Positions 8,218-38,165 of a stretch of DNA of 59,871 nt are shown piece after piece. A program made the position numbers and the translations under genes. Under the pieces are notes generated by a model that was not told the origin of the DNA, searched no databases, and worked only from the letters and a program-made list of their open reading frames with translations. Every line of letters starts with the position of its first letter. The first letter of the stretch is position 1. The stretch comes from Thiorhodospira sibirica ATCC 700588 (lineage in GTDB: Bacteria > Pseudomonadota > Gammaproteobacteria > Ectothiorhodospirales > Ectothiorhodospiraceae): positions 648,541 through 708,411 of the forward strand of contig NZ_MU255056.1 of assembly GCF_000227725.2 (NCBI RefSeq), read 5' to 3'.

Positions 8218-8877
8218 TTAGCGTGGTTCAGTGTCTGAAGGGCGGCAGTGCGGTGCTTGCAGCAGATTGAGTTGTGTCGGCAGTTCGGCTTTCACGGTGT
8301 GCGCCTGTTCGGGCAGGGCCTTGAAATCAATCCAGTACATGGTGAGTGTCAGGGTGCGGGTTTCAATCTCGGCAAAATGGCCCAGACGCTTGAGTTCTTC
8401 GACCCGCCGTTGCGCCCTGGCGTGTTGGGAGAAAACGCCAAGCGCCAAGGCGTTGTTTTTCTCCCCTTCGGTGATGACATACAGATCCTCAATGCCTTGT
8501 TCGCTGAGTCGGCTGACCAGCTTGCGCGCCTGTTCACGCGTAGGTTGTGGCGGCAAATAGACACGATAGCCCAGGGTTTCCTGTTTTTCCACGGTGCGTA
8601 GCTCGGCCTCCAGGCCACGCGTTCTGAGGTGCGTCAAGGCATGTTGGGCGCTGGCCTGAAAACGAAAGGGGCCGATGGCATGGCAGATCAGTACCGGCGG
8701 GCGTTCATGCAAGAGCCACAGTGTTCTCAGCTGGGTTTCGCTTGAAGATGGCGGATTCTGCACGGTCGTGGGGACAGCGGGGGGATGGATTTGGGTATGC
8801 CACAAGGCATAGACAATATTGAGCAGGAGCAACAGGAAAAACAGCACCCGCATAAAAACTGCATGGCGTGGTGTCAT
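8218..8877 (-). CDS. SPOR-domain membrane protein
   Basis: About 219 residues from the ATG at 8877: a short cytoplasmic start, one transmembrane helix (VLFFLLLLLNIVYALW), a proline-rich linker, and a C-terminal SPOR domain. The SPOR part is seen as GPFRFQASAQHALTHLRTRG, GYRVYLPPQPTREQA and LYVITEGEKNNALALGVFS. SPOR domains bind peptidoglycan lacking stem peptides at the division septum, so a role in envelope or division biology is likely. The frame stays open into coaX, but the upstream part only repeats coaX in another frame. It follows coaX closely, consistent with one operon. Confidence 0.8.
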   Translation of the reverse strand: MTPRHAVFMRVLFFLLLLLNIVYALWHTQIHPPAVPTTVQNPPSSSETQLRTLWLLHERPPVLICHAIGPFRFQASAQHALTHLRTRGLEAELRTVEKQETLGYRVYLPPQPTREQARKLVSRLSEQGIEDLYVITEGEKNNALALGVFSQHARAQRRVEELKRLGHFAEIETRTLTLTMYWIDFKALPEQAHTVKAELPTQLNLLQAPHCRPSDTEPR

Positions 8878-8926
8878 GCGGTGTGCGTGTGGGCCTTGGG
8901 ACTCCCAGGCAGATGCTTCGGCATGA

Positions 8927-9688
8927 TTAGCCACGGCGATGTTCGCCCGCAAGCACAGCCAATCCCTCCAGCACCAGATCATCCACACAGGCATAGTCCC
9001 CGTGCAGCCAGGGCTGCAGCATGCTGGCATCGCCCCCCGTCAGGAGGGTGTGCGCCGGGGTGGGCACGGTGTTGCTGATCTGGGCACACAAGCCTTCAAT
9101 GGCGGCGGCCAGGCCCAGCAAGGTGCCACTATGAATGCCATCGGCGGTGTTGCAGGCCAGCGGCGTGATGGTGTTTCCTTCGGTCGGGGGCAGTGCCGCC
9201 AATTCGCTGCTCAATGCCCGGCGCATCAGCCCCACGCCCGGCAAGATCAGGCCGCCCCGGTGAAGATTATCAGCATCCAGATAATCCAGGGTCAAGGCAG
9301 AACCGGCATCTATCACCAGCAGGGCGCCATCGGGGTAATGGTGGCGGGCGCCCAGCATGGCCAGATAGCGATCAATCCCCAGTCGTTGCGGCTCGCTGTA
9401 GGCGCTGCGTAGCCCCAATGCCAGGATGTCGGCGGCGCTGACCGTGTAGGGCATCGGCCAGGCGTGTTGTTGACACCATGCGCGGAAGTCATTGCAAAAA
9501 TCCTCTGCCAGTACGCTGGCAAGGTAGATGCCCTGATCAGGCCGTGGGAGCTTGCCAAGGTGCGCAAATAACCGCGCCCTGGCGTGGGCGGCATAGGGCA
9601 GGGCGGTGCTGTGACTTGGGTGGTGCAGATCATCAAGCCAGCGCCATTTCAGGCGGGTATTGCCCGCATCGAGCAATAAAAAAGCCAT
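8927..9688 (-). CDS. coaX: Type III pantothenate kinase CoaX
   Basis: Phosphorylates pantothenate, the first step of coenzyme A synthesis; the type III enzyme is not feedback-inhibited by CoA. The 254-residue product starts MAFLLLDAGNTRLKW, the phosphate-binding DxGNT motif. It also has LGIDRYLAMLGA and the second phosphate loop IDAGSALTLDYL, then the conserved GGLILPGVGLM. The start at 9688 is set by the DxGNT motif at residue 7; the longer open frame upstream has no homology. The gene follows the isochorismatase-fold gene by 17 bases. Confidence 0.95.
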   Translation of the reverse strand: MAFLLLDAGNTRLKWRWLDDLHHPSHSTALPYAAHARARLFAHLGKLPRPDQGIYLASVLAEDFCNDFRAWCQQHAWPMPYTVSAADILALGLRSAYSEPQRLGIDRYLAMLGARHHYPDGALLVIDAGSALTLDYLDADNLHRGGLILPGVGLMRRALSSELAALPPTEGNTITPLACNTADGIHSGTLLGLAAAIEGLCAQISNTVPTPAHTLLTGGDASMLQPWLHGDYACVDDLVLEGLAVLAGEHRRG

Positions 9689-9705
9689 GATGTCGAGGAG
9701 CGGGG

Positions 9706-10419
9706 TTATGCTGCCTTGGCCAGTTCGGCGAGGATTTCCTCGGTACACATCACGCGGGCATAGCGGTCTTTCATGGTGGTAATGGTGGCCTGTTGTAATT
9801 CGGGGGTGACGGTGGCGCAGCCATCTTCCACCAGGGTGACATAAAAGCCTAAGTCGCAGGCGTCGCGAATGGCAGTGGAGACGCATTCATTGCTATACAC
9901 GCCGACCATAAACAAGGCCGTGATGCCGAGATTGCGCAGCACATATTCGATATTGGTTGAGGTAAACACACCGCTGGCGGTTTTGTTGATGACGATCTCA
10001 TCCCCAATGGGGGCCACCATCTCTAAAAACTCAGCCTCTTTGGAGTCAGGCGCGGCGTGTAATCCCAGGCGTTTATGCCCTGGGCCACGGTCACGCCCAT
10101 CGCGGGTCAGGGACTGGATGCGGGTATGGATGACTTCCTGTTCCATCGCCCTAAAGGCATCTTGCAGGCGGCGTACATTGGGTAAAACCAGGGTTTCCAG
10201 GCGATTGAAGTAATAATCCTGCGCCTCGGGGGCAACGCCAGAGCGTTCGCAATCGGCAAAGACGCCATAGCCGCGTGCAGCATCAAGATATTGCAGGTCG
10301 ATACACAGCAGGGCGGCATGATGGTCGCCGATGACCCGGTTAAGAAAGCGGTTGGTGATCAGCTGACCGCGATATTGCTCGCGCAGCGGATCGATATTGT
10401 CGTAATCAATAGCGTTCAA
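9706..10419 (-). CDS. Isochorismatase-family cysteine hydrolase
   Basis: A 237-residue protein of the isochorismatase/nicotinamidase fold. The expected Asp-Lys-Cys triad is visible: Asp in LLCIDLQYLD, Lys in VINKTASGVF, and Cys in VYSNECVSTA, the last with the usual GV.(T/S)N.CV context. Members hydrolyse diverse C-N, ether or thioether substrates, so the reaction cannot be assigned. Its ATG overlaps the stop of the NuoG-like gene by four bases, so the two proteins are probably made in step. This is the only clue to its role. Confidence 0.8.
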   Translation of the reverse strand: MNAIDYDNIDPLREQYRGQLITNRFLNRVIGDHHAALLCIDLQYLDAARGYGVFADCERSGVAPEAQDYYFNRLETLVLPNVRRLQDAFRAMEQEVIHTRIQSLTRDGRDRGPGHKRLGLHAAPDSKEAEFLEMVAPIGDEIVINKTASGVFTSTNIEYVLRNLGITALFMVGVYSNECVSTAIRDACDLGFYVTLVEDGCATVTPELQQATITTMKDRYARVMCTEEILAELAKAA

Positions 10420-13539: not shown

Positions 13540-13616
<77 letters not shown>

Positions 13617-15003: not shown

Positions 15004-16359
15004 TATAGTGGACCCCGAAATCTGGACAACAGCTTAAGCGATGACAAAGCCTCCAGCATGGGGTAGCGAAGAGATGAGCGAGAAGAGGAAGCGGAACACA
15101 TACAACGCCGAGTTCAAGGCCAAGGTCGGGCGTGAGGCGATCCATGGGGTCAAGACCGTCAACGAGATGGGTCAAGCCTACGGGGTTCACCCGGTGCAGG
15201 TCAGCAAGTGGAAGAAGGCAATCGTTGAGCAGGCAGGGACGCGCTTTGAGGGCAAGCGTGGTCCGAAACCGGCAGCGGAGCAGGACTCGCCGGATCGGCT
15301 CTACAGCGAGATGGGCCGCCTGAAGATGGAGCTGGACGGGGACTGGCTCAAAAAAAACAGGGATCACCCTGCCATGAGCCGCCAGGGCTGGATTGAGGCG
15401 GAGGGTGCGCGCTCCATCGTGCGGCAGTGTGAGCGGGCGGAGGTAGCTCGAGCGACCGTATACGCGCATCGCCATCCATCACAGGAGAACGCGACGGCGC
15501 TGCTGCTGTGCCGTCTGCTCGACGAAATCTATACGCGGCGACCGCTCTACGGGAGCCGCCGGATAGTAGCCGAGCGGCGGGCACAGGGCCATGAAGTCAA
15601 CCGCAAGTGCGTGCAGCGACTGATGCGCCGGATGGGACTGGCGGCGATCGCGCCGGGCCCTCACACCCGCCGCCCGCACCCGCAGCACAAAGTCTATCCG
15701 TACCGGTTGCGTGGCATTCAGGTCATTCGGCCCAACCAGGGCTGCAGCACTGACATCACGTACGTGCGGCTAGCGCGAGGCTTTTGCGACCGGGTCGCGA
15801 TCATCGACGGGTACAGCCGAAAGGTCTTGAGTGAGCGGCTCAGCAACACCATCGATGCGAGCTTTTGCCTCGACTGTCTTGAGGAAGCCCTGCGGCTGAA
15901 CCGCCCTCCTGAAGTCTTCAACAGCGACCAAGGCGCTCAGAACACGGCGGAGCCATTCACCAGCGTGCTCAAGCGTGAAGGCATGACGATCAGCATCGAT
16001 GGCCGAGGGCGAGCCTTTCACAACATCTTCGTAGAGCGGCTCTGGCGAACGGTGAAGCATGAGGACACCGACCTCAAAGGCGACGCTGACCTGCGTGAGG
16101 TGACTCTTGGGCTACTGGAAGACTTCTCATTTTACAACGAAGAGCGCCCGCACCAAGCACAGGCCGACGAGACGCCAGCAACGGTCTACAGGACCCGGCA
16201 GGGAGGAGGTGCATTGATCGTAGACAAATACGGCCCAGGGCGGTGACGCCTACCGACGGTGAATCTGCGGCATCAGGGCAGCGCTGTGCAGCTGCGAGTG
16301 AGGGGCAGGCGATAACTTTAACTCGGCCACCTTTTGTCTTGACAATGGGGTCCACCTCA
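15004..16359. mobile_element. IS3-family insertion sequence
   Basis: The ends are inverted: GTGGACCCCGAAATCTGGACAAC-like sequence from 15008, and at the right end the complement GTGGACCCCATTGTCAAGAC reading leftward from 16355. They enclose one transposase frame. The ends are placed approximately. No target-site duplication is visible, and the gene on the right (Uma2) lacks its 5' half. The element has probably been involved in an adjacent deletion or rearrangement. Confidence 0.8.
15074..16246 (+). CDS. IS3-family transposase (OrfA-OrfB in one frame)
   Basis: Residues 1-90 form the helix-turn-helix OrfA region (TYNAEFKAKVGREAIHG; VHPVQVSKWKKAI). The rest is the OrfB integrase core with the DDE residues in STDITYV, FNSDQGAQ and FVERLWRTVKHED. 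Most IS3 members make OrfAB by a -1 shift on an A-rich slippery site. Here an A8 run at about 15350-15357 sits at the junction (WLKKN), and the two parts read through in one frame. The open frame reaches back to ATG 15041; MSEKRKRNTYN at 15074 is the likelier start. The junction residues look altered compared with typical members, so activity is uncertain. Confidence 0.85.
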   Translation: MSEKRKRNTYNAEFKAKVGREAIHGVKTVNEMGQAYGVHPVQVSKWKKAIVEQAGTRFEGKRGPKPAAEQDSPDRLYSEMGRLKMELDGDWLKKNRDHPAMSRQGWIEAEGARSIVRQCERAEVARATVYAHRHPSQENATALLLCRLLDEIYTRRPLYGSRRIVAERRAQGHEVNRKCVQRLMRRMGLAAIAPGPHTRRPHPQHKVYPYRLRGIQVIRPNQGCSTDITYVRLARGFCDRVAIIDGYSRKVLSERLSNTIDASFCLDCLEEALRLNRPPEVFNSDQGAQNTAEPFTSVLKREGMTISIDGRGRAFHNIFVERLWRTVKHEDTDLKGDADLREVTLGLLEDFSFYNEERPHQAQADETPATVYRTRQGGGALIVDKYGPGR

Positions 16360-16584
16360 GTTGCGGACAGCAGTCTGCAGACTGATCGCGACATCAAGAT
16401 TCCGTTGTATGCGTTTCACGCTATTCCCGAGGTTTGGATTGTGGCAATACCTGAGCGTCAGGTATTGCGTTTTGCTCATCCTTTGCAGGGTGTTTACCAA
16501 CGCGGCGACATAGTCTCGCTGAATCAACCCACTCAACTGCCAGGATTGCCGGGTTATGCCGTAGATCTGGCGGGACTTTTTTGA
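16357..16584 (+). pseudogene. Uma2-family endonuclease, C-terminal fragment
   Basis: The frame after the IS3 right end reads SVADSSLQTDRDIKIPLYA then IPEVWIVAIPERQVLRF and PGLPGYAVDLAGLF. This is the C-terminal half of the Uma2 (DUF820) PD-(D/E)XK nuclease family: the EVADSSL..D...K..LYA..GIPEYWIVD pattern and the terminal LDLAALF. The N-terminal half with the first catalytic residues is absent to the left of the IS, so the gene is dead. It ends 11 bases before the GTPase gene. Confidence 0.8.
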
Positions 16585-16595
16585 TGAATTAAGCC

Positions 16596-18125
16596 ATGCC
16601 AATCGTTAGTCATTATCCCAGTCCTCACGCATCACCGGATGGAGCAACAGCGACGATCCACCGCACCCTGCACCTTTTGATTGAGCGCCTGGGCTGTTCG
16701 GCAGCTCCGCCGGATGGCCTGCTGACAGCGCGGGTGATTGGTGAATTTTCTGCAGGCAAGACGCGTCTGTTGCGTGAATTGTTGGGCGAGCAGATTCCGC
16801 CAGCGCTGTTTCCAGTCAGTTCGCTGGAGCGTCAAACCCGCTTGCCGCTTGAAATTACCTACGGTGATCCGGCCATACTGGAGTTGATAGAACGCGCCAA
16901 CGATTACGACCCGGCAACGGTAATCAAGCCTTTGGACGCTTTCCCGCAGCGTGAACAACTGGCTGATTATGATCCGCAACGCTATCGCTTGCGCCTGGCG
17001 ATTCCTGAGCTTCGGTTATTTTTACCGACGGGTGATCATTATGGCGAGGACGATCAGGCACCTAAACGCCTGCTGTTGATCGATATGCCAGGCTGGAATT
17101 CAGGTGATGACAAAATTGCCGAAGGGGATGCTGCCGATATGCTGGCGGGCTATCACAATCTGGCGCTTGTTTTTGTCGTTAATGCCACGCGCCTTGACGG
17201 ACAGGATAACCACGAGCGTTTGCGTGATTTTCTCAATGCCTTGGTTGATGCCGATTTTGTAGGACAACCAACGTTGCTGGTTGTGATCACACACTGCCCG
17301 CCCGCTGACGCCGAGCGACTCCGTGCACGCATGCACAAACACATTATGTCTTTGTGGGCGGAGCTGGATCAGGATCTTGCATCACTGCAACTGCAGCTGC
17401 TAACCGTTGATTTTCCGGTATTGACTGCCGATGAACGTGCCACCTTTCGCGAAACTTTCTGGAGGCATCTGCTGGCCCCGATACAGCAAACCTCCGCTGC
17501 AGTGCCCATGCCCCCCTGGATTGTGGCCATGCGTCATTGGTCTGGCGATGCTAATCCCTGTTCACACCTACCCCAAGCGGCTGAGTGCATTGCCCGAGCG
17601 CGGGCACTGCTCGAACGCGCCTGCCAGAACGGGGATTTTCTGCCCGGCATGAATATGCACCGCCTGTTGGGGCTTGATGCTAAAGGCATTCATACACGTT
17701 TACTGGAAACCTGGCGGCGTCAGTTAAAATATGCTGATCTGGAGCAACTTGCGCATTATCTCGCCGTGCCGGCATCCCTTGCAGACGAGCATCCCCTCGC
17801 GCCTTGGTGGAATGACTACTGGCAAGCCAATCTGGAGCGGCTGCTTATGCCCACGCGCCGCTTTATGGTATTGGCTGAGCGTGTGCTCTGTGAAGTGCAG
17901 CCAGATACTGAGGATCTGCGTGCCCATTTAGCCGCACGCTTGACCAATCCGCACCGTCAGGCCATGCAAGCACTGGATTGCAGCTTTAGCTGTCTGGTCG
18001 AGACGGCGCAGATGCTGCTTGAGAACACACAGCCTCCACAAGCCATTGCCACACTCTTAAGCCTGTCTCTGATGGAGGCGCGCTATGCGGATCATTACGC
18101 CTGGGCGATGGATGATTTTTTGTAA
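16596..18125 (+). CDS. Dynamin-like GTPase, first gene of Hsp70-like operon
   Basis: A 509-residue protein. The P-loop is GEFSAGKT (residues 49-56). The probable switch-I threonine is T81 in RQTRLPLEITYG, a context typical of bacterial dynamin-like GTPases. The G3 motif is DMPG (163-166) in LLLIDMPGWNSG, and the G4 position reads VITHCP (~230-235) where NKxD or TKxD is usual. No membrane helix is evident. The C-terminal ~200 residues are helical with no recognised domain. It is followed by a GrpE-like gene (now disrupted) and an Hsp70-like gene on the same strand. The function of the set is unknown; membrane or envelope quality control or a defence role are guesses. Confidence 0.7.
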   Translation: MPIVSHYPSPHASPDGATATIHRTLHLLIERLGCSAAPPDGLLTARVIGEFSAGKTRLLRELLGEQIPPALFPVSSLERQTRLPLEITYGDPAILELIERANDYDPATVIKPLDAFPQREQLADYDPQRYRLRLAIPELRLFLPTGDHYGEDDQAPKRLLLIDMPGWNSGDDKIAEGDAADMLAGYHNLALVFVVNATRLDGQDNHERLRDFLNALVDADFVGQPTLLVVITHCPPADAERLRARMHKHIMSLWAELDQDLASLQLQLLTVDFPVLTADERATFRETFWRHLLAPIQQTSAAVPMPPWIVAMRHWSGDANPCSHLPQAAECIARARALLERACQNGDFLPGMNMHRLLGLDAKGIHTRLLETWRRQLKYADLEQLAHYLAVPASLADEHPLAPWWNDYWQANLERLLMPTRRFMVLAERVLCEVQPDTEDLRAHLAARLTNPHRQAMQALDCSFSCLVETAQMLLENTQPPQAIATLLSLSLMEARYADHYAWAMDDFL

Positions 18126-18139
18126 GCGGCTGATTATGT

Positions 18140-18170
18140 CACGGGGCAGCCTCTTGCAAATGTTGCCACG
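18140..18170. repeat. REP-like hairpin
   Basis: GGCAGCCTCTTGCAAATGTTGCC, flanked by ACGG and ACG, forms an imperfect hairpin. It matches the first half of the palindromic element in mfd (5207-5265) and lies in the gap between the GTPase and GrpE-like genes. Confidence 0.45.
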
Positions 18171-18430
18171 ACAATCGAACGCTCCTGCTGCATAGATTTA
18201 ACAAAAAAGTTGCTTCATCTATGAACGAAAAACAGCAAAAACGCTGGCGCGAACTCCAACGGGACGCCCAAAAAGATGTTGGCGATTATTTGTGTGAAAA
18301 ACTCACCTATCCAGACATCGTACTCTTACTTCAACAGGATCTGCAGATTCGCACGCTGATACGTGAAATCCTTGAGTGTTCACATCAAGAGGAGGTTGTA
18401 TCAGATGATAAATCCACGTCAACCGATTTA

Positions 18431-18440
18431 CCGGTGTATG
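18431..18440. repeat. Left target-site duplication of IS4-type copy 1
   Basis: CCGGTGTATG directly precedes the element and is repeated exactly at 19630-19639 directly after it. A 10-bp duplication is usual for parts of the IS4 family. Confidence 0.9.
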
Positions 18441-19629
18441 CTTACCACCTATCAGTTACTCGCGGGCATAAAAAGCGGGTAACGGGCTGTTGTTTTGGAG
18501 ACAGCGCTGTAGATAGCGCAGACCGCGTTTAAACCAGGACAGCAGGCTGCGGGAGGCTTTTTTGAAGGTCCAATGCTCAGGGTCGTGTTGGGTCTGGAGT
18601 TTTTTTCAAGGGGTGTTGGGGAGGCGAGTGCCTCGGCGCGCCCCGCACGCACGCACCAATACATGGCCAGGGCCATGATCAGGACAAGGCGCTCCAGACG
18701 GTCGGCGTGCTGGAGTTGGGAGTGCTGGAGGTTGAAGCCCCGGCTCTTGAGGTCCGAGAACATCGGCTCGATGCACCAGCGTGCGGCATAATCCAGAACG
18801 CGCGTGCGTGTGGGCAGGGCGTCCATTGCGATGATCCAGGGCTGTGGATGCCCGGGGTCGTGCAGGATCCCGAGATGGGTTCGCACCCCGCAGGCAAACA
18901 GGCCGACCTCGGTGAGATAGCGCTCGCGCACGCCTTGGGCCAGTGCCCCGGTGGTCGTCTCCTCGCTCTGCCCACTGTCGACGCGCAGGTTGCCTTTGAG
19001 CCGCAGCCGGTAGCTCCAGCCCTGGGCCTGGAGCCACTCCAACAGCGCCACGCTGGGATAGAACCGATCGGCGCAGAGCAACACCGCCACCCCGGGCGGT
19101 ACCCAAGAGCGAACCCGCTCCAACAGCCCCCGTTGCGCCTCCCAGCCGAGATTGGCCGCCCCCTCCTCGGCGCACCAGGCTAGGGGTAACGCCCGATCAC
19201 CCACGCGCAGCGCCACCATCAGCACCGCCATTCGATCTCCCAGGTCGCTTTGATCCAGACTCAACAACACCGTTTGATCGCCACTGGCCGCCTTGGCCAG
19301 CTCCGAACGTGCCCAGGGCTCCAAGATCGTCGCCGAATCGATCAGCCGATTCTTCAGCAACCGCCTCAACCACTGCTCGCGCATGTCTTGCCGCGGCGTC
19401 TCCAGTGGCAGCAGGTTGGCCAACTCCGCCGTGTTCGGCGTTTGCCCCTCCAGCATCGCTCCAACGGCCAGCGCCAGTTTGTCGACCACCGTCTTACGCA
19501 ACCCTGGATGCGCTTCGCGCAGTCCTCGGGCCACTTCTTCTGCCAAGCGTTTGACACTTCCCATGCTCACCCCTATGACCTCAGTTCAGCTATTCCTCAA
19601 AGTTTGCCATAAAAGTGATAGGTGGCAAG
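18441..19629. mobile_element. IS4-family insertion sequence, copy 1 (1189 bp)
   Basis: The element is bounded by CTTACCACCTATCA at the left and its near-perfect inverse TGATAGGTGGCAAG at the right, and is flanked by the 10-bp direct repeat CCGGTGTATG. Ends and length were fixed by comparison with the second copy at 36977-38165; both are 1189 bp and encode the same transposase. Perfect duplications and identical copies point to recent transposition. Confidence 0.93.
18452..19570 (-). CDS. IS4-family transposase, copy 1
   Basis: A 372-residue DDE transposase. Visible features are the first catalytic Asp in VLLSLDQSDLGDRM, the second in AVLLCADRFYPS, and the IS4 YREK-like region represented by RWCIEPMFSDLKSRGFNLQHS, which supplies the catalytic Glu. 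It is encoded opposite to the genes of the island. The amino-acid sequence is identical to that of copy 2, so the element is probably intact and may be active. A second in-frame ATG lies two codons in. Confidence 0.9.
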   Translation of the reverse strand: MSMGSVKRLAEEVARGLREAHPGLRKTVVDKLALAVGAMLEGQTPNTAELANLLPLETPRQDMREQWLRRLLKNRLIDSATILEPWARSELAKAASGDQTVLLSLDQSDLGDRMAVLMVALRVGDRALPLAWCAEEGAANLGWEAQRGLLERVRSWVPPGVAVLLCADRFYPSVALLEWLQAQGWSYRLRLKGNLRVDSGQSEETTTGALAQGVRERYLTEVGLFACGVRTHLGILHDPGHPQPWIIAMDALPTRTRVLDYAARWCIEPMFSDLKSRGFNLQHSQLQHADRLERLVLIMALAMYWCVRAGRAEALASPTPLEKNSRPNTTLSIGPSKKPPAACCPGLNAVCAIYSAVSKTTARYPLFMPASN

Positions 19630-19639
19630 CCGGTGTATG
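19630..19639. repeat. Right target-site duplication of IS4-type copy 1
   Basis: CCGGTGTATG immediately after the right inverted repeat, identical to 18431-18440. Confidence 0.9.
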
Positions 19640-20153
19640 ATCGGCATGAGCGGACTGAATCTTGTGTGGGCCCGTTGGCTGCAACGCCGCCTAAAGAGGT
19701 GCTTTTTGCATCCAGCAACCGTTCAGAGGCGCTGCGCGAGCAGCTTGCTCCAGAATTGGCGCTTCTGGCGCGATTTCGCTCCGATACCGAGCTGGTTGCA
19801 CTGTGGCTACTCAATGATAACGAGCCAGAGGGGCGGCAACTGCTTCGCCTGGTTGCGCTATTGGCGCAATGGGATCAGATACTGCAACTCTGGGATCATT
19901 TGGCCCAACGCTGTAAAGCAGCACAACGCCCAGCAAGCGAGGACGAGCGGCAGATCCTTGCTGCAGCCTTGGATATTCATAACCTCATCTGGCACGGTCG
20001 AGCGGCACGCCTGCAGTCCGTTGTACCCGGTACGGCCTTTCATTTCAAACAGCATGAGCGTGGCGTACAAACGGGTGAAATCATCCGTGCGCAATGGCTT
20101 CCTGGGCTGCTCAATGCCGCCGGTCAATTACAAAAAAAACCACTGGTCGAGAC

Positions 20154-23075
20154 ATGAGCACGCACTCCACCAATCAAATGTTGCGCGAGGTGATCGCGAC
20201 ATTGGATGCACTCAGTCAGCGACTGCCTCGGCGTGCCCTGCTTGCAAGACTCCAGGCCCATGCGCGTCAATACCATTTACAGATTGATCTCATTACGATG
20301 AACATGGATATCCCTTCTTATCTCAAAGACTTTTATTATTCCGAACAGATCGCGCCGCTTGCCCAAAAGCTTGCCGCTCAACCATTCTGGTGGGTTGGTA
20401 CGCTTACTCAAAAAGCGCTCATGCTTTACGACAGCCAAAGCCGCCTGCTTTGGGAAGCAAAACCGGATCAGCAAACCACGGTATCGCTACGAGAAAGCCA
20501 GCAACGTATCAAGCAACTTACCTCAAAATCGCTGGGTGAGTGGCGTCTACCTTCCAAAGATGAGTTAGTCCAATTCGCAACCCGGCAAACCAATCCGTTA
20601 CGCGGCGGCGGTAGTGATCGCTTGTTGCGCCAAGACTATTGGCTCTGCAAGGGGGGACGGATTGACCTGGATTCTGCCGCCTCGACATCCATCAATACAA
20701 ATGGCCCTGGCGCTATCATTGCCTGCAATGCATTTTTTGCCGACACCCCCGCAGAGGCTTTCATTGAAGCCGCTATTCAGCAGCGTTGGACACTTAAACC
20801 GTGCACTCCAACTGGGGCTGAAAACCTACTGGCGTCGCTTCAAGGATGTCCCGATCTGCCCACGCTCTACCAGCCGATTGACTGGCTTTGCGCCCGTTTA
20901 CCCCTACTTGAGGCGGTGCAGTTTTCCGACCCCAACAAAGGTCTGTGGGAATTTTGGGGACAAGATGCAGAAACGCTGCGTGAAGCCGGGATACGTGCCC
21001 GTAATCCTACCGATGACCTCAAAGATTGGAATATCGCCATCGACTTTGGCACCAGCAGCACGGTGGTGGCCTATGATGACAACGGTCAATCCAAACTGCT
21101 GCGCATCGGCGTTCAAGACTTCTGGGGCAAGGAAGAACCCAGCGATTATGAAAACCCAACCGTGCTCGAATTTATTGATTTGGCTGCGTTGTTTGATGCC
21201 TGGCGCAGTGAGGCTTATCGCCCTGGGGTTTTGTGGGATCAAGTACGCTGCTCACACGAGGCACTCCACAACTTGCGTCACAACGAGACCAATCCGTGCG
21301 TGGTGGCGAGTATGCTGGCCAAGCTCAAACAATGGGCCTTGCGCGAGGAGCTTGATGCTCCGCTGCGTATTACCGATCAGGCCAAAGGATTTGAGCATAC
21401 GCTTCACTCGCTGACCCTGCGTATGCCCGTCAAAGGCCAGACGCTCACGGTTGGCCCGGACGATCCTTTTGATCCAATCGAGCTTTATGCCTGGTTTCTG
21501 GGCTTGACCATCAATTGGCGCGGACGCGGCCTTTTTTTGCGCTATTACATGACTTTCCCGGTGGCCTATCCACGCAAAGTCAAGGACAAAATCCTTGCGT
21601 CTTTCCAGCGTGGTTTGCAGCGCAGCCTGCCAAAGGCGCTCATTGATCAGCCTGTTTTTGCAGATTTCACGGTTGCGGAATTGGCCAGTGAACCCGCAGC
21701 CTATGCAGCGGCTGCCTTGCCCTTGTTAGGTATTGAGCCGACGACGCAGGGCGTGGCCTATGCGGTGTTTGATTTTGGAGGCGGCACTACCGATTTTGAT
21801 TTTGGGCGTTATCGTCTGCCAAATGCCGGCGAGGAGGATGAAGGCTGGGAAGCGGTTTTTGAACATTTTGGAGCGGCGGGCGATCGGTTCTTGGGCGGCG
21901 AAAATCTTCTGGAAAATTTGGCCTACCTGACCTTCCTGCATAATCGGGAACTTTGTCGCCAGCATCGAATCGCCTTTACGCGCCCGCTGGATGCCGATGA
22001 CTTTCCTGGCGCGGAAATGTTTCTTGAGCGCACTCAGGCCGCACAAACCAATACCTTGATGCTGATGGCACGGCTACGCCCGTTTTGGGAACAGGGACAA
22101 TTACCCAATAGCAGCGGGGTAGAAAAAATCGAACTGTTAAATCGTGACGGCGGCAAAGTAAGCTGTGAACTTGCCATCCCCGAGACAGCGCTAACCGAAT
22201 ATCTGGAAATGCGTATCGAACAGGGCGTGCATAATTTTCTGGTGGCCATGCATCAAGCGTTTGCTGACCAACCGCCCGAACAGATTCATGTTTTACTCGG
22301 GGGAAATGCCAGTCGTTCGCAGATTGTAGGACGGTTATTGCTTGGATTGGGAGGCAAGCTGTTTGAGGGAAATAATCGCTGGGGGGAGTGGGGAGACGCC
22401 AGCCAAGCCGCAGAAACCCTGCGTCAATACATCAAGCAGAGCATCCAGTCTGCACGGAACGCAGAGTCTAAGCTGGATATTATGGTCAGCTCGCCGGAGA
22501 CTTCCACGGAGGAATCAACCGCTGATCCGCTACAACGTGGCGTTCAGGAAAGACTGCAGGCGTTGTTTGGTCAGCGCGCTCCCGATCTGTACCCCTACCC
22601 ACCCTTAACGATTGACCCCTCGGATATCTACCGCCCTACCGCTAAAACCGGCGTGGCGCTCGGACTGCTGCGGCTGTGCCCTGGTGGCGTGGTTAAGGTC
22701 GTCAACCATGCCATCATCAATAGCGGCGGCGAAGCGCCGTTTGCCTTTCATGTCGGACGCGAACGTCTGGGACGCTTCCAGGTTGGTCTGCATCAGGGCA
22801 GTCCTTACGGCGAATGGCATGAACTGGGTGCGCCGCGTGATGGGGTTTTCAACCTGTATTACAGCCAACTACCGCGTGCGCAAACCGGTGAACTGCGCAT
22901 CGGCGAACCGGGGCTTTACAAGCGCCGCATAGACCTAAGCGGAGAGTTATCCAGTCGCAAGGTTTTTGCACGGGCCATCGGACCCGATCAAATAGAGATC
23001 TGCACGGCTACATCCAGCACAGCCATCGCCAACGCCGAGACCGAAAACACCCGCACCGTGATACTGGATTATTAG
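20154..23075 (+). CDS. Hsp70-like ATPase with N-terminal DUF1566-like domain
   Basis: A 973-residue protein from ATG 20154, which overlaps the previous stop by four bases. Residues ~105-210 resemble the DUF1566 (Lcl C-terminal) domain: EWRLPSKDELVQFA then DYWLCKGG and a later IIACNAFF. An actin/Hsp70-type ATPase follows, with phosphate-1 AIDFGTSSTVVAYD (~294), phosphate-2 VFDFGGGTTDFDFG (~539) and the adenosine motif VLLGGNASRS (~712). The last ~200 residues are not recognisable as the standard Hsp70 substrate domain. Large insertions separate the ATPase motifs. With the upstream GTPase and GrpE-like genes it forms an unusual chaperone-type operon. The partner or substrate is unknown. Confidence 0.8.
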   Translation: MSTHSTNQMLREVIATLDALSQRLPRRALLARLQAHARQYHLQIDLITMNMDIPSYLKDFYYSEQIAPLAQKLAAQPFWWVGTLTQKALMLYDSQSRLLWEAKPDQQTTVSLRESQQRIKQLTSKSLGEWRLPSKDELVQFATRQTNPLRGGGSDRLLRQDYWLCKGGRIDLDSAASTSINTNGPGAIIACNAFFADTPAEAFIEAAIQQRWTLKPCTPTGAENLLASLQGCPDLPTLYQPIDWLCARLPLLEAVQFSDPNKGLWEFWGQDAETLREAGIRARNPTDDLKDWNIAIDFGTSSTVVAYDDNGQSKLLRIGVQDFWGKEEPSDYENPTVLEFIDLAALFDAWRSEAYRPGVLWDQVRCSHEALHNLRHNETNPCVVASMLAKLKQWALREELDAPLRITDQAKGFEHTLHSLTLRMPVKGQTLTVGPDDPFDPIELYAWFLGLTINWRGRGLFLRYYMTFPVAYPRKVKDKILASFQRGLQRSLPKALIDQPVFADFTVAELASEPAAYAAAALPLLGIEPTTQGVAYAVFDFGGGTTDFDFGRYRLPNAGEEDEGWEAVFEHFGAAGDRFLGGENLLENLAYLTFLHNRELCRQHRIAFTRPLDADDFPGAEMFLERTQAAQTNTLMLMARLRPFWEQGQLPNSSGVEKIELLNRDGGKVSCELAIPETALTEYLEMRIEQGVHNFLVAMHQAFADQPPEQIHVLLGGNASRSQIVGRLLLGLGGKLFEGNNRWGEWGDASQAAETLRQYIKQSIQSARNAESKLDIMVSSPETSTEESTADPLQRGVQERLQALFGQRAPDLYPYPPLTIDPSDIYRPTAKTGVALGLLRLCPGGVVKVVNHAIINSGGEAPFAFHVGRERLGRFQVGLHQGSPYGEWHELGAPRDGVFNLYYSQLPRAQTGELRIGEPGLYKRRIDLSGELSSRKVFARAIGPDQIEICTATSSTAIANAETENTRTVILDY

Positions 23076-36976: not shown

Positions 36977-38165
36977 CTTACCACCTATCAGTTACTCGCG
37001 GGCATAAAAAGCGGGTAACGGGCTGTTGTTTTGGAGACAGCGCTGTAGATAGCGCAGACCGCGTTTAAACCAGGACAGCAGGCTGCGGGAGGCTTTTTTG
37101 AAGGTCCAATGCTCAGGGTCGTGTTGGGTCTGGAGTTTTTTTCAAGGGGTGTTGGGGAGGCGAGTGCCTCGGCGCGCCCCGCACGCACGCACCAATACAT
37201 GGCCAGGGCCATGATCAGGACAAGGCGCTCCAGACGGTCGGCGTGCTGGAGTTGGGAGTGCTGGAGGTTGAAGCCCCGGCTCTTGAGGTCCGAGAACATC
37301 GGCTCGATGCACCAGCGTGCGGCATAATCCAGAACGCGCGTGCGTGTGGGCAGGGCGTCCATTGCGATGATCCAGGGCTGTGGATGCCCGGGGTCGTGCA
37401 GGATCCCGAGATGGGTTCGCACCCCGCAGGCAAACAGGCCGACCTCGGTGAGATAGCGCTCGCGCACGCCTTGGGCCAGTGCCCCGGTGGTCGTCTCCTC
37501 GCTCTGCCCACTGTCGACGCGCAGGTTGCCTTTGAGCCGCAGCCGGTAGCTCCAGCCCTGGGCCTGGAGCCACTCCAACAGCGCCACGCTGGGATAGAAC
37601 CGATCGGCGCAGAGCAACACCGCCACCCCGGGCGGTACCCAAGAGCGAACCCGCTCCAACAGCCCCCGTTGCGCCTCCCAGCCGAGATTGGCCGCCCCCT
37701 CCTCGGCGCACCAGGCTAGGGGTAACGCCCGATCACCCACGCGCAGCGCCACCATCAGCACCGCCATTCGATCTCCCAGGTCGCTTTGATCCAGACTCAA
37801 CAACACCGTTTGATCGCCACTGGCCGCCTTGGCCAGCTCCGAACGTGCCCAGGGCTCCAAGATCGTCGCCGAATCGATCAGCCGATTCTTCAGCAACCGC
37901 CTCAACCACTGCTCGCGCATGTCTTGCCGCGGCGTCTCCAGTGGCAGCAGGTTGGCCAACTCCGCCGTGTTCGGCGTTTGCCCCTCCAGCATCGCTCCAA
38001 CGGCCAGCGCCAGTTTGTCGACCACCGTCTTACGCAACCCTGGATGCGCTTCGCGCAGTCCTCGGGCCACTTCTTCTGCCAAGCGTTTGACACTTCCCAT
38101 GCTCACCCCTATGACCTCAGTTCAGCTATTCCTCAAAGTTTGCCATAAAAGTGATAGGTGGCAAG
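36977..38165. mobile_element. IS4-family insertion sequence, copy 2 (1189 bp)
   Basis: Same ends (CTTACCACCTATCA / TGATAGGTGGCAAG), same length and same orientation as copy 1, with its own 10-bp duplication GGTACCTCGG. It sits inside rne. Confidence 0.93.
36988..38106 (-). CDS. IS4-family transposase, copy 2
   Basis: A 372-residue transposase identical in sequence to that of copy 1 (18452-19570), with the same catalytic-motif candidates. Here it is transcribed in the same direction as rne, so transcription through rne could reach it. Confidence 0.9.
   Translation of the reverse strand: MSMGSVKRLAEEVARGLREAHPGLRKTVVDKLALAVGAMLEGQTPNTAELANLLPLETPRQDMREQWLRRLLKNRLIDSATILEPWARSELAKAASGDQTVLLSLDQSDLGDRMAVLMVALRVGDRALPLAWCAEEGAANLGWEAQRGLLERVRSWVPPGVAVLLCADRFYPSVALLEWLQAQGWSYRLRLKGNLRVDSGQSEETTTGALAQGVRERYLTEVGLFACGVRTHLGILHDPGHPQPWIIAMDALPTRTRVLDYAARWCIEPMFSDLKSRGFNLQHSQLQHADRLERLVLIMALAMYWCVRAGRAEALASPTPLEKNSRPNTTLSIGPSKKPPAACCPGLNAVCAIYSAVSKTTARYPLFMPASN

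Follow-up and report, generated by a model that had tools for sequence, protein, structure and literature searches.

The locus lies in a window of 59,871 nucleotides (the whole stretch of DNA that was analysed) from Thiorhodospira sibirica ATCC 700588. It is a decaying, IS-interrupted copy of an NTPase module that is rare and has spread horizontally; it encodes a dynamin-like GTPase, a GrpE-like protein, and a long Hsp70-like ATPase. The features are as follows.

15041 to 16246, plus strand: IS3-family transposase, the left edge of the locus (NCBIfam transpos_IS3, 240 bits)
16243 to 16584, plus strand: 3′ end of a broken Uma2-family gene (35 bits with Pfam Uma2, covering only positions 102-171 of the 172 in the profile)
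16596 to 18125, plus strand: dynamin-like GTPase (DYN2 type), 509 aa, intact frame (Dynamin_N match)
18221 to 18440, plus strand: GrpE-like gene, 5′ piece, ending in the left target duplication 18431-18440 (similarity to the L003 protein)
18441 to 19629, minus strand: IS4-family insertion, 1,189 bp, with imperfect terminal inverted repeats (NCBIfam IS4 models)
19630 to 20157, plus strand: GrpE-like gene, 3′ piece, opening with the right target duplication 19630-19639 (similarity to the L003 protein)
20154 to 23075, plus strand: Hsp70-like ATPase, 973 aa, intact frame (hhalign, Foldseek)
20424 to 20594, plus strand: N-terminal variable domain of the ATPase, Lcl_C-like, aa 91-147 (Lcl_C E=9e-6, below the curated cut-off)
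21006 to 22358, plus strand: Hsp70 nucleotide-binding domain (NBD), aa ~285-735 (invariant catalytic residues)
22731 to 23072, plus strand: C-terminal beta domain, aa ~860-973, which probably resembles SBD-beta but has no alpha lid (pLDDT, DnaK alignment)

The original prediction read this region as an operon of three adjacent same-strand genes, the last two overlapping by four bases. All three products are found and the overlap is real (ATGA at 20154-20157), but simple adjacency does not hold, since an IS4-family element splits the middle gene; nor is the operon intact, because a further gene, LPV, has also been lost. The GrpE-like gene extends from 18221 to 20157 and is cut at 18440/19630 by the element, whose transposase frame (18452-19570, minus strand) lies inside it and which is flanked by the 10-bp target duplication CCGGTGTATG at 18431-18440 and 19630-19639. 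The middle ORF as first called (from 19615) starts within the IS. When the flanks are joined without the element, a single open frame of 245 aa results, and both pieces can be aligned with the 241-aa protein of a Thiocystis MAG (locus L003): the 5′ piece with 46% identity (hmmsearch E=2e-8) and the 3′ piece, which bears the GrpE-like C-terminal motif, with 66% (E=2e-66). The gene was therefore whole until a recent insertion. A second copy of the element in the window (36977-38165) is 100% identical and has its own 10-bp duplication, GGTACCTCGG; given two identical copies, each with a duplication, the element must have been active recently in this genome. The present copy of the module is probably dead.

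The dynamin-like GTPase shows both the GEFSAGKT and the DMPG motif, as had been noted, and reaches 30.2 bits with Pfam Dynamin_N (cut-off 27, E=5e-7); its identity to L003:5348-6868 is 65%. The IS elements that had been described are indeed present, as is the broken Uma2 gene upstream of the dynamin gene. The IS3-family element occupies the place of the upstream genes of L003, with only the 3′ end of Uma2 remaining beyond it, and has probably deleted the 5′ portion of the locus. L003 likewise has a Uma2 gene (L003:4673-5290) directly upstream of its second dynamin gene; Uma2 genes being common, this likeness may be chance. A tRNA-Pro(GGG) gene is located at 13540-13616, about 3 kb upstream of the module, and its 3′ end is not repeated elsewhere in the window, which therefore gives no sign of an integrase island. 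Comparison with relatives yielded no clean empty site, since flank synteny is lost across the module.

The 973-aa protein is a true but divergent Hsp70. The three nucleotide motifs attributed to it (IDFGT, FDFGGGT, and the adenosine motif) are all present, and hhalign of its family against DnaK-type proteins gives a probability of 97 (E=1e-10). It does not reach the Pfam HSP70 threshold, with HscA/DnaK models matching residues 500-590; the family profile finds DnaK in the PDB at E=1.7e-4. Residues D297, T300, K392, E513, D540, and T545 are invariant across ten relatives, and were equated with the DnaK catalytic set by our own reading. The AlphaFold model, built from six sequences, is weak as a whole (pLDDT 51.6), with most of aa 861-970 in the C-terminal beta domain at pLDDT 76-89. 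Foldseek returned full-length DnaK/Hsp70 chains as the best matches of this model (E to 1e-10), and in VIA-align Hsp70 ranks top (Z up to 11.8), several of the alignments extending to residue 973 of the model and to ~502-512 of DnaK, the end of SBDβ. No lid follows the beta domain. From the model, we tentatively liken the C-terminus to an SBDβ that has no lid; the claim that the ATPase lacks the usual substrate domain is then probably wrong.

For the middle protein, PF01025 (GrpE) matches no GrpE-like member at the thresholds used, and a search with a GrpE HMM gave none either. Comparison with GrpE by hhalign is weak (E=8e-4, probability 25), though aligned exactly on the GxxFDPxxH...G segment, and GrpE ranks top in a PDB search with the GrpE-like protein, at E=0.32. 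The AlphaFold model is uninformative (pLDDT 45), the alignment consisting of the sequences from the window, L003, and L004 only. Several members possess a coiled-coil N-terminus. Seven copies have enough flanking sequence to judge the gene order (window, L003, L004, L008, L009, G092, and G537), and each of them has the GrpE-like gene immediately before the Hsp70-like one. The motif alignment, the strict adjacency, and the coiled-coil N-termini make it likely that the protein serves as exchange factor for the Hsp70-like ATPase. By motif and synteny, a GrpE fold is likely as well. A second GrpE match, in the relative G037, was discarded because its neighbourhood is unrelated.

Similarity among the ATPases is unevenly distributed along their length. 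The NBD is 79-80% identical to that of the window within the clade and 37-58% outside it, whereas for the N-terminal 240 residues the values are 52-55% and 10-22%. The window protein and both Acinetobacter copies have an Lcl_C-like N-terminus, that of G537 a WD40 propeller; in G582, WD40 repeats are found directly 5′ of the Hsp70-like gene. Across these sequences, the protein combines a constant ATPase core with an N-terminal domain that is exchanged. In G537 (L076:10728-13769 and 8601-10265), the WD40 propeller is fused to the Hsp70-like core, and next to the fused gene are another copy of the core, nearly identical, and a WD40 gene that stands alone, an arrangement that looks like domain exchange in progress.

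Scanning GTDB contigs gave three carriers and scanning plasmids gave two. The survey of gene neighbourhoods suggested with the original prediction recovered the same gene order in L003 and in a gammaproteobacterial MAG (L004), with 52-80% identity by region. L003 has the fuller layout: dynamin 1 (758 aa), an FGE-sulfatase-like protein, Uma2, dynamin 2, an antitoxin-like ORF, the 179-aa helical protein LPV, the GrpE-like protein (241 aa), and the Hsp70-like protein (1,015 aa). In L004, a hybrid dynamin gene is followed by the LPV, GrpE-like, and Hsp70-like genes. LPV is thus encoded between the dynamin and GrpE-like genes in the relatives, and is absent from the window and from the whole genome to which it belongs. 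In the tree, the window, L003, and L004 proteins are grouped (100/100) next to those of Marinospirillum and Acinetobacter, with the solitary class described below standing apart. The contig ends of L004 (1-6432) overlap exactly over 121 bp, giving a 6,311-bp unit that holds only these four genes and may be a circle, a tandem array, or an assembly artefact.

The dynamin branch with Hsp70 has been seen in only these three loci, plus one dynamin-only trio whose members match the window dynamin, the first dynamin of L003 and, by eye, the N-terminus of L004. The trio occurs in G092 and G228 (L125/L126) as three adjacent dynamin-like GTPase genes with small coiled-coil genes after them (in G092, these are repeated), and in both genomes the contig ends near the same edge. 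The sets of two or three dynamins seen in the relatives are what bacterial dynamin pairs would lead one to expect (PMC6104087). No nuclease or other clear effector was seen in the dynamin branch.

The conserved core of the module is the GrpE-like protein with the Hsp70-like ATPase, often accompanied by LPV. In one branch this core is coupled to dynamins, and in the other to a HerA-type ATPase and a glycine-zipper protein, in places with HEPN or HNH nucleases; with operons of both kinds built around the same core, dynamins and HerA motors appear to be alternative partners. The Acinetobacter plasmid encodes a WYL regulator, a HerA-type ATPase of 1,047 aa, a hydrophobic protein of 226 aa, an LPV-like protein (310 aa), a GrpE-like protein (290 aa), two tandem Hsp70-like proteins, HEPN, and a dynamin fragment, with HipBA among the neighbours. 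G092 and G537, two further proteobacteria from the sample, have HerA, a glycine-rich protein of 221-222 aa, the GrpE-like and Hsp70-like proteins, and a protein of 144-170 aa. On the Helicobacter plasmid, a GrpE-like gene is accompanied by an Hsp70-like gene split in two (628+220 aa) and by genes for an FtsK/HerA protein and an HNH nuclease, the latter with SMI1/KNR4. A 27%-identical HerA is found with two dynamins, HNH, and SMI1 on an E. coli plasmid; WHH and LHH are the HNH types that adjoin SMI1/KNR4 on these two plasmids. A Photobacterium plasmid carries the cassette of HerA and a glycine-zipper protein (213 aa) inside an McrBC-like operon with Csm6. A JetD-like gene adjoins the Marinospirillum copies of the Hsp70-like gene. 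Locus L005 (1-7661) has a row of three Hsp70-like genes, of which the first is truncated where the contig stops, beside a JetD-like (DUF7281) gene and an uncharacterised, possibly JetA-like gene.

The module was found in three of the 369 gammaproteobacterial genomes sampled (own genome included), in 3/78 of another class, and on two plasmids. None turned up in the genomes of the same family that were searched. This rarity and the plasmid-borne relatives bear out the idea of an acquired module. Dynamin and HerA queries found no match in viral contigs, in which the Hsp70-like profile had only short matches of the Hsp70-general kind (27-35% identity over ~70-110 residues); phage records and an E. 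coli DNA search gave no match.

The Hsp70-like gene by itself has a very different distribution in the class of G403 (probably Magnetococcia), where it occurs in 40/48 genomes (26/27 good ones), almost always as one gene of ~960 aa. None of the 17 solitary loci examined in this class has a GrpE-like neighbour. These solitary, near-universal orthologues show that the ATPase can work without GrpE-like or dynamin partners, and they look housekeeping. Solitary Hsp70-like genes (L059-L078) have no conserved operon partner.

Within the open PMC literature, we found no characterised system with exactly this make-up, as the original prediction had supposed; the module is most likely a variant not described in this form. 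The closest kinds are the GTPase-centred conflict systems (DO-GTPase/GAP1-N2) of Kaur et al. 2020 (PMC7159879) and the CoCoNuTs (PMC11090510), neither of which matches by its defining features. The former also combine one or more GTPases, Hsp70, and GrpE in one neighbourhood, with a predicted thresholding role and a constant core joined to variable parts, and their HSP70 is sometimes without the peptide-binding domain (PMC7159879). However, their HSP70 theme belongs chiefly to actinobacteria and firmicutes (PMC7159879), the GTPase of the window is a dynamin (12.6 bits with the DO-GTPase2 model versus a cut-off of 27), no FNIII or J-domain component is found here, and the present Hsp70-like protein belongs to a family of its own, whose N-terminal domain is exchangeable. 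The Pfam scan of the component proteins gave no match to a GAP1 model.

CoCoNuT Type III, which is McrBC-related and has EccE3-HerA extensions, resembles the module in having an Hsp70-like NBD/SBD protein (CnuD) in a defence operon (PMC11090510), and the HerA-type ATPase and glycine-zipper protein of the HerA branch also occur in an McrBC-like plasmid operon. CnuD is described as degenerate (PMC11090510), whereas the present family retains all catalytic residues, and GrpE is mentioned nowhere in PMC11090510 (0 occurrences). McrB and DUF2357 McrC are absent from the operon proteins of the window, L003, and L008; DUF2357 turned up solely in the Photobacterium locus, the one with the shared HerA cassette.

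LeoABC/Eleos likewise has dynamin-like GTPases in sets, and the first dynamin of L003 matches PADLOC LeoA at E=1e-11; the window dynamin, in contrast, gives only E=0.05, the LeoA profile being reached by the extra dynamin of L003 alone. We know of no Hsp70 or GrpE partner in LeoABC. PADLOC had no meaningful model match for the Hsp70-like, dynamin-branch GrpE-like, or LPV proteins. SrfABC, which is reported as a toxin and was a first guess from protein sizes, was set aside, as no such Pfam family matched at E<=1 and the operon differs. The module shares with the housekeeping dnaK-grpE set the fold class of its ATPase and probably the same exchange-factor relationship. It is not that set, as had been stated: dnaK-grpE sits at a separate locus (G000:C4:2.83 Mb), structural alignment gives only ~13-16% identity to DnaK, and the present protein has a long N-terminal domain and lacks the lid. 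The J protein is missing too, no gene for one being recognised beside the locus.

Both an envelope-stress and a defence function had been suggested. We give about even odds to a defence or conflict module, the most likely reading, in which an Hsp70-type switch would gate dynamin GTPases, with a decaying copy here. A conflict role is indicated by the mobility and patchiness of the module, its N-terminal swaps, its tandem paralogues, and the WYL, HEPN, HNH-SMI1, JetD-like, and McrBC-Csm6 genes in its company. Against such a role stand the solitary orthologues of one class, the want of any meaningful PADLOC match, the small number of dynamin-branch loci, and the failure to see a clear effector in that branch. 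The N-terminal domain, to go by its variability alone, would recognise a trigger, for instance a signal from a phage or another invader. By turning over ATP, the Hsp70-like core would act as a threshold switch, which the GrpE-like exchange factor would reset; the client released or remodelled would be the dynamin set, which might then tether or disrupt membranes and so provide defence or self-limiting infection. The output of the HerA branch might be a HerA-driven nuclease or pore. Because the IS has split the putative exchange-factor gene, the switch is probably off in this genome.

A more specific form of this idea, possible but on the doubtful side, is a chaperone-based immune receptor. The Hsp70-like protein with its interchangeable sensors would be an NLR-like NTP switch, reset by the GrpE-like protein and firing dynamins or a unit of HerA, glycine-zipper protein, and nuclease. 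Hsp70s are known as folding machines; if the proposal were true, bacteria in conflict would be using the chaperone cycle as a switch for sensing. It would also form a link between the dynamin defence systems, the CoCoNuTs that bear an Hsp70, and the GTPase–HSP70–GrpE systems that have been predicted, and it draws attention to the near-universal Hsp70-like gene of one proteobacterial class (again, presumably Magnetococcia).

An envelope role without any defence function is retained as a rival, which we consider unlikely. By analogy with mycobacterial iniBAC, the Hsp70-like and GrpE-like proteins would assemble or recycle dynamins that repair or bud membranes. Its best arguments are the solitary gene found in 40/48 genomes of one class, which suggests a physiological role, and the dynamin-like, cell-wall-stress-induced IniA/IniC together with a dnaK-like gene directly downstream of iniR in M. 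smegmatis (PMC5760070, PMC6715688). The operon forms, however, are rare, mobile, plasmid-borne, and swap dynamins for HerA; the WYL, HEPN, HNH/SMI1, and McrBC/Csm6 genes keep them company, and N-terminal swapping suggests changing recognition targets. The same WYL, HEPN, and McrBC/Csm6 contexts favour defence over a quite improbable third reading, an assembly chaperone for secretion or toxin delivery. There, the Hsp70-like and GrpE-like proteins would load a HerA/FtsK motor with its glycine-zipper protein, HNH toxin, and SMI1 immunity, and dynamins would replace the motor in the dynamin branch. The HNH nucleases (WHH, LHH) adjoining SMI1/KNR4 on the Helicobacter and E. coli plasmids speak for it, as does the proposal that EccE3-HerA/VirB4-like ATPases in CoCoNuTs are possibly secretion-related (PMC11090510), but neither the window nor L003 or L004 has a secretion partner or toxin gene.

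With IS elements at its left edge and in its interior, with Uma2 and the GrpE-like gene broken and LPV missing, the locus might also be taken for debris, that is, unrelated genes joined by IS elements and without a functional link. We give this very little credence, since the gene order recurs in L003 and L004 at the identities given above and the GrpE-like gene stays next to the Hsp70-like gene on plasmids and in other genera. For the gene set, the debris explanation is refuted; for the present functionality of the window copy, it may hold. The decaying defence or conflict module is the reading that we prefer.

Elsewhere in the same genome, a second pair of Hsp70-like and dynamin matches was considered as a copy of the operon and rejected, the two being ~22 kb apart. 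A second dynamin-like cluster is located at G000:C4:1988.5-1993.4 kb (L118 2530-7404), with ORFs of 277, 173, 591, and 545 aa and GTPase P-loops in at least two of them.
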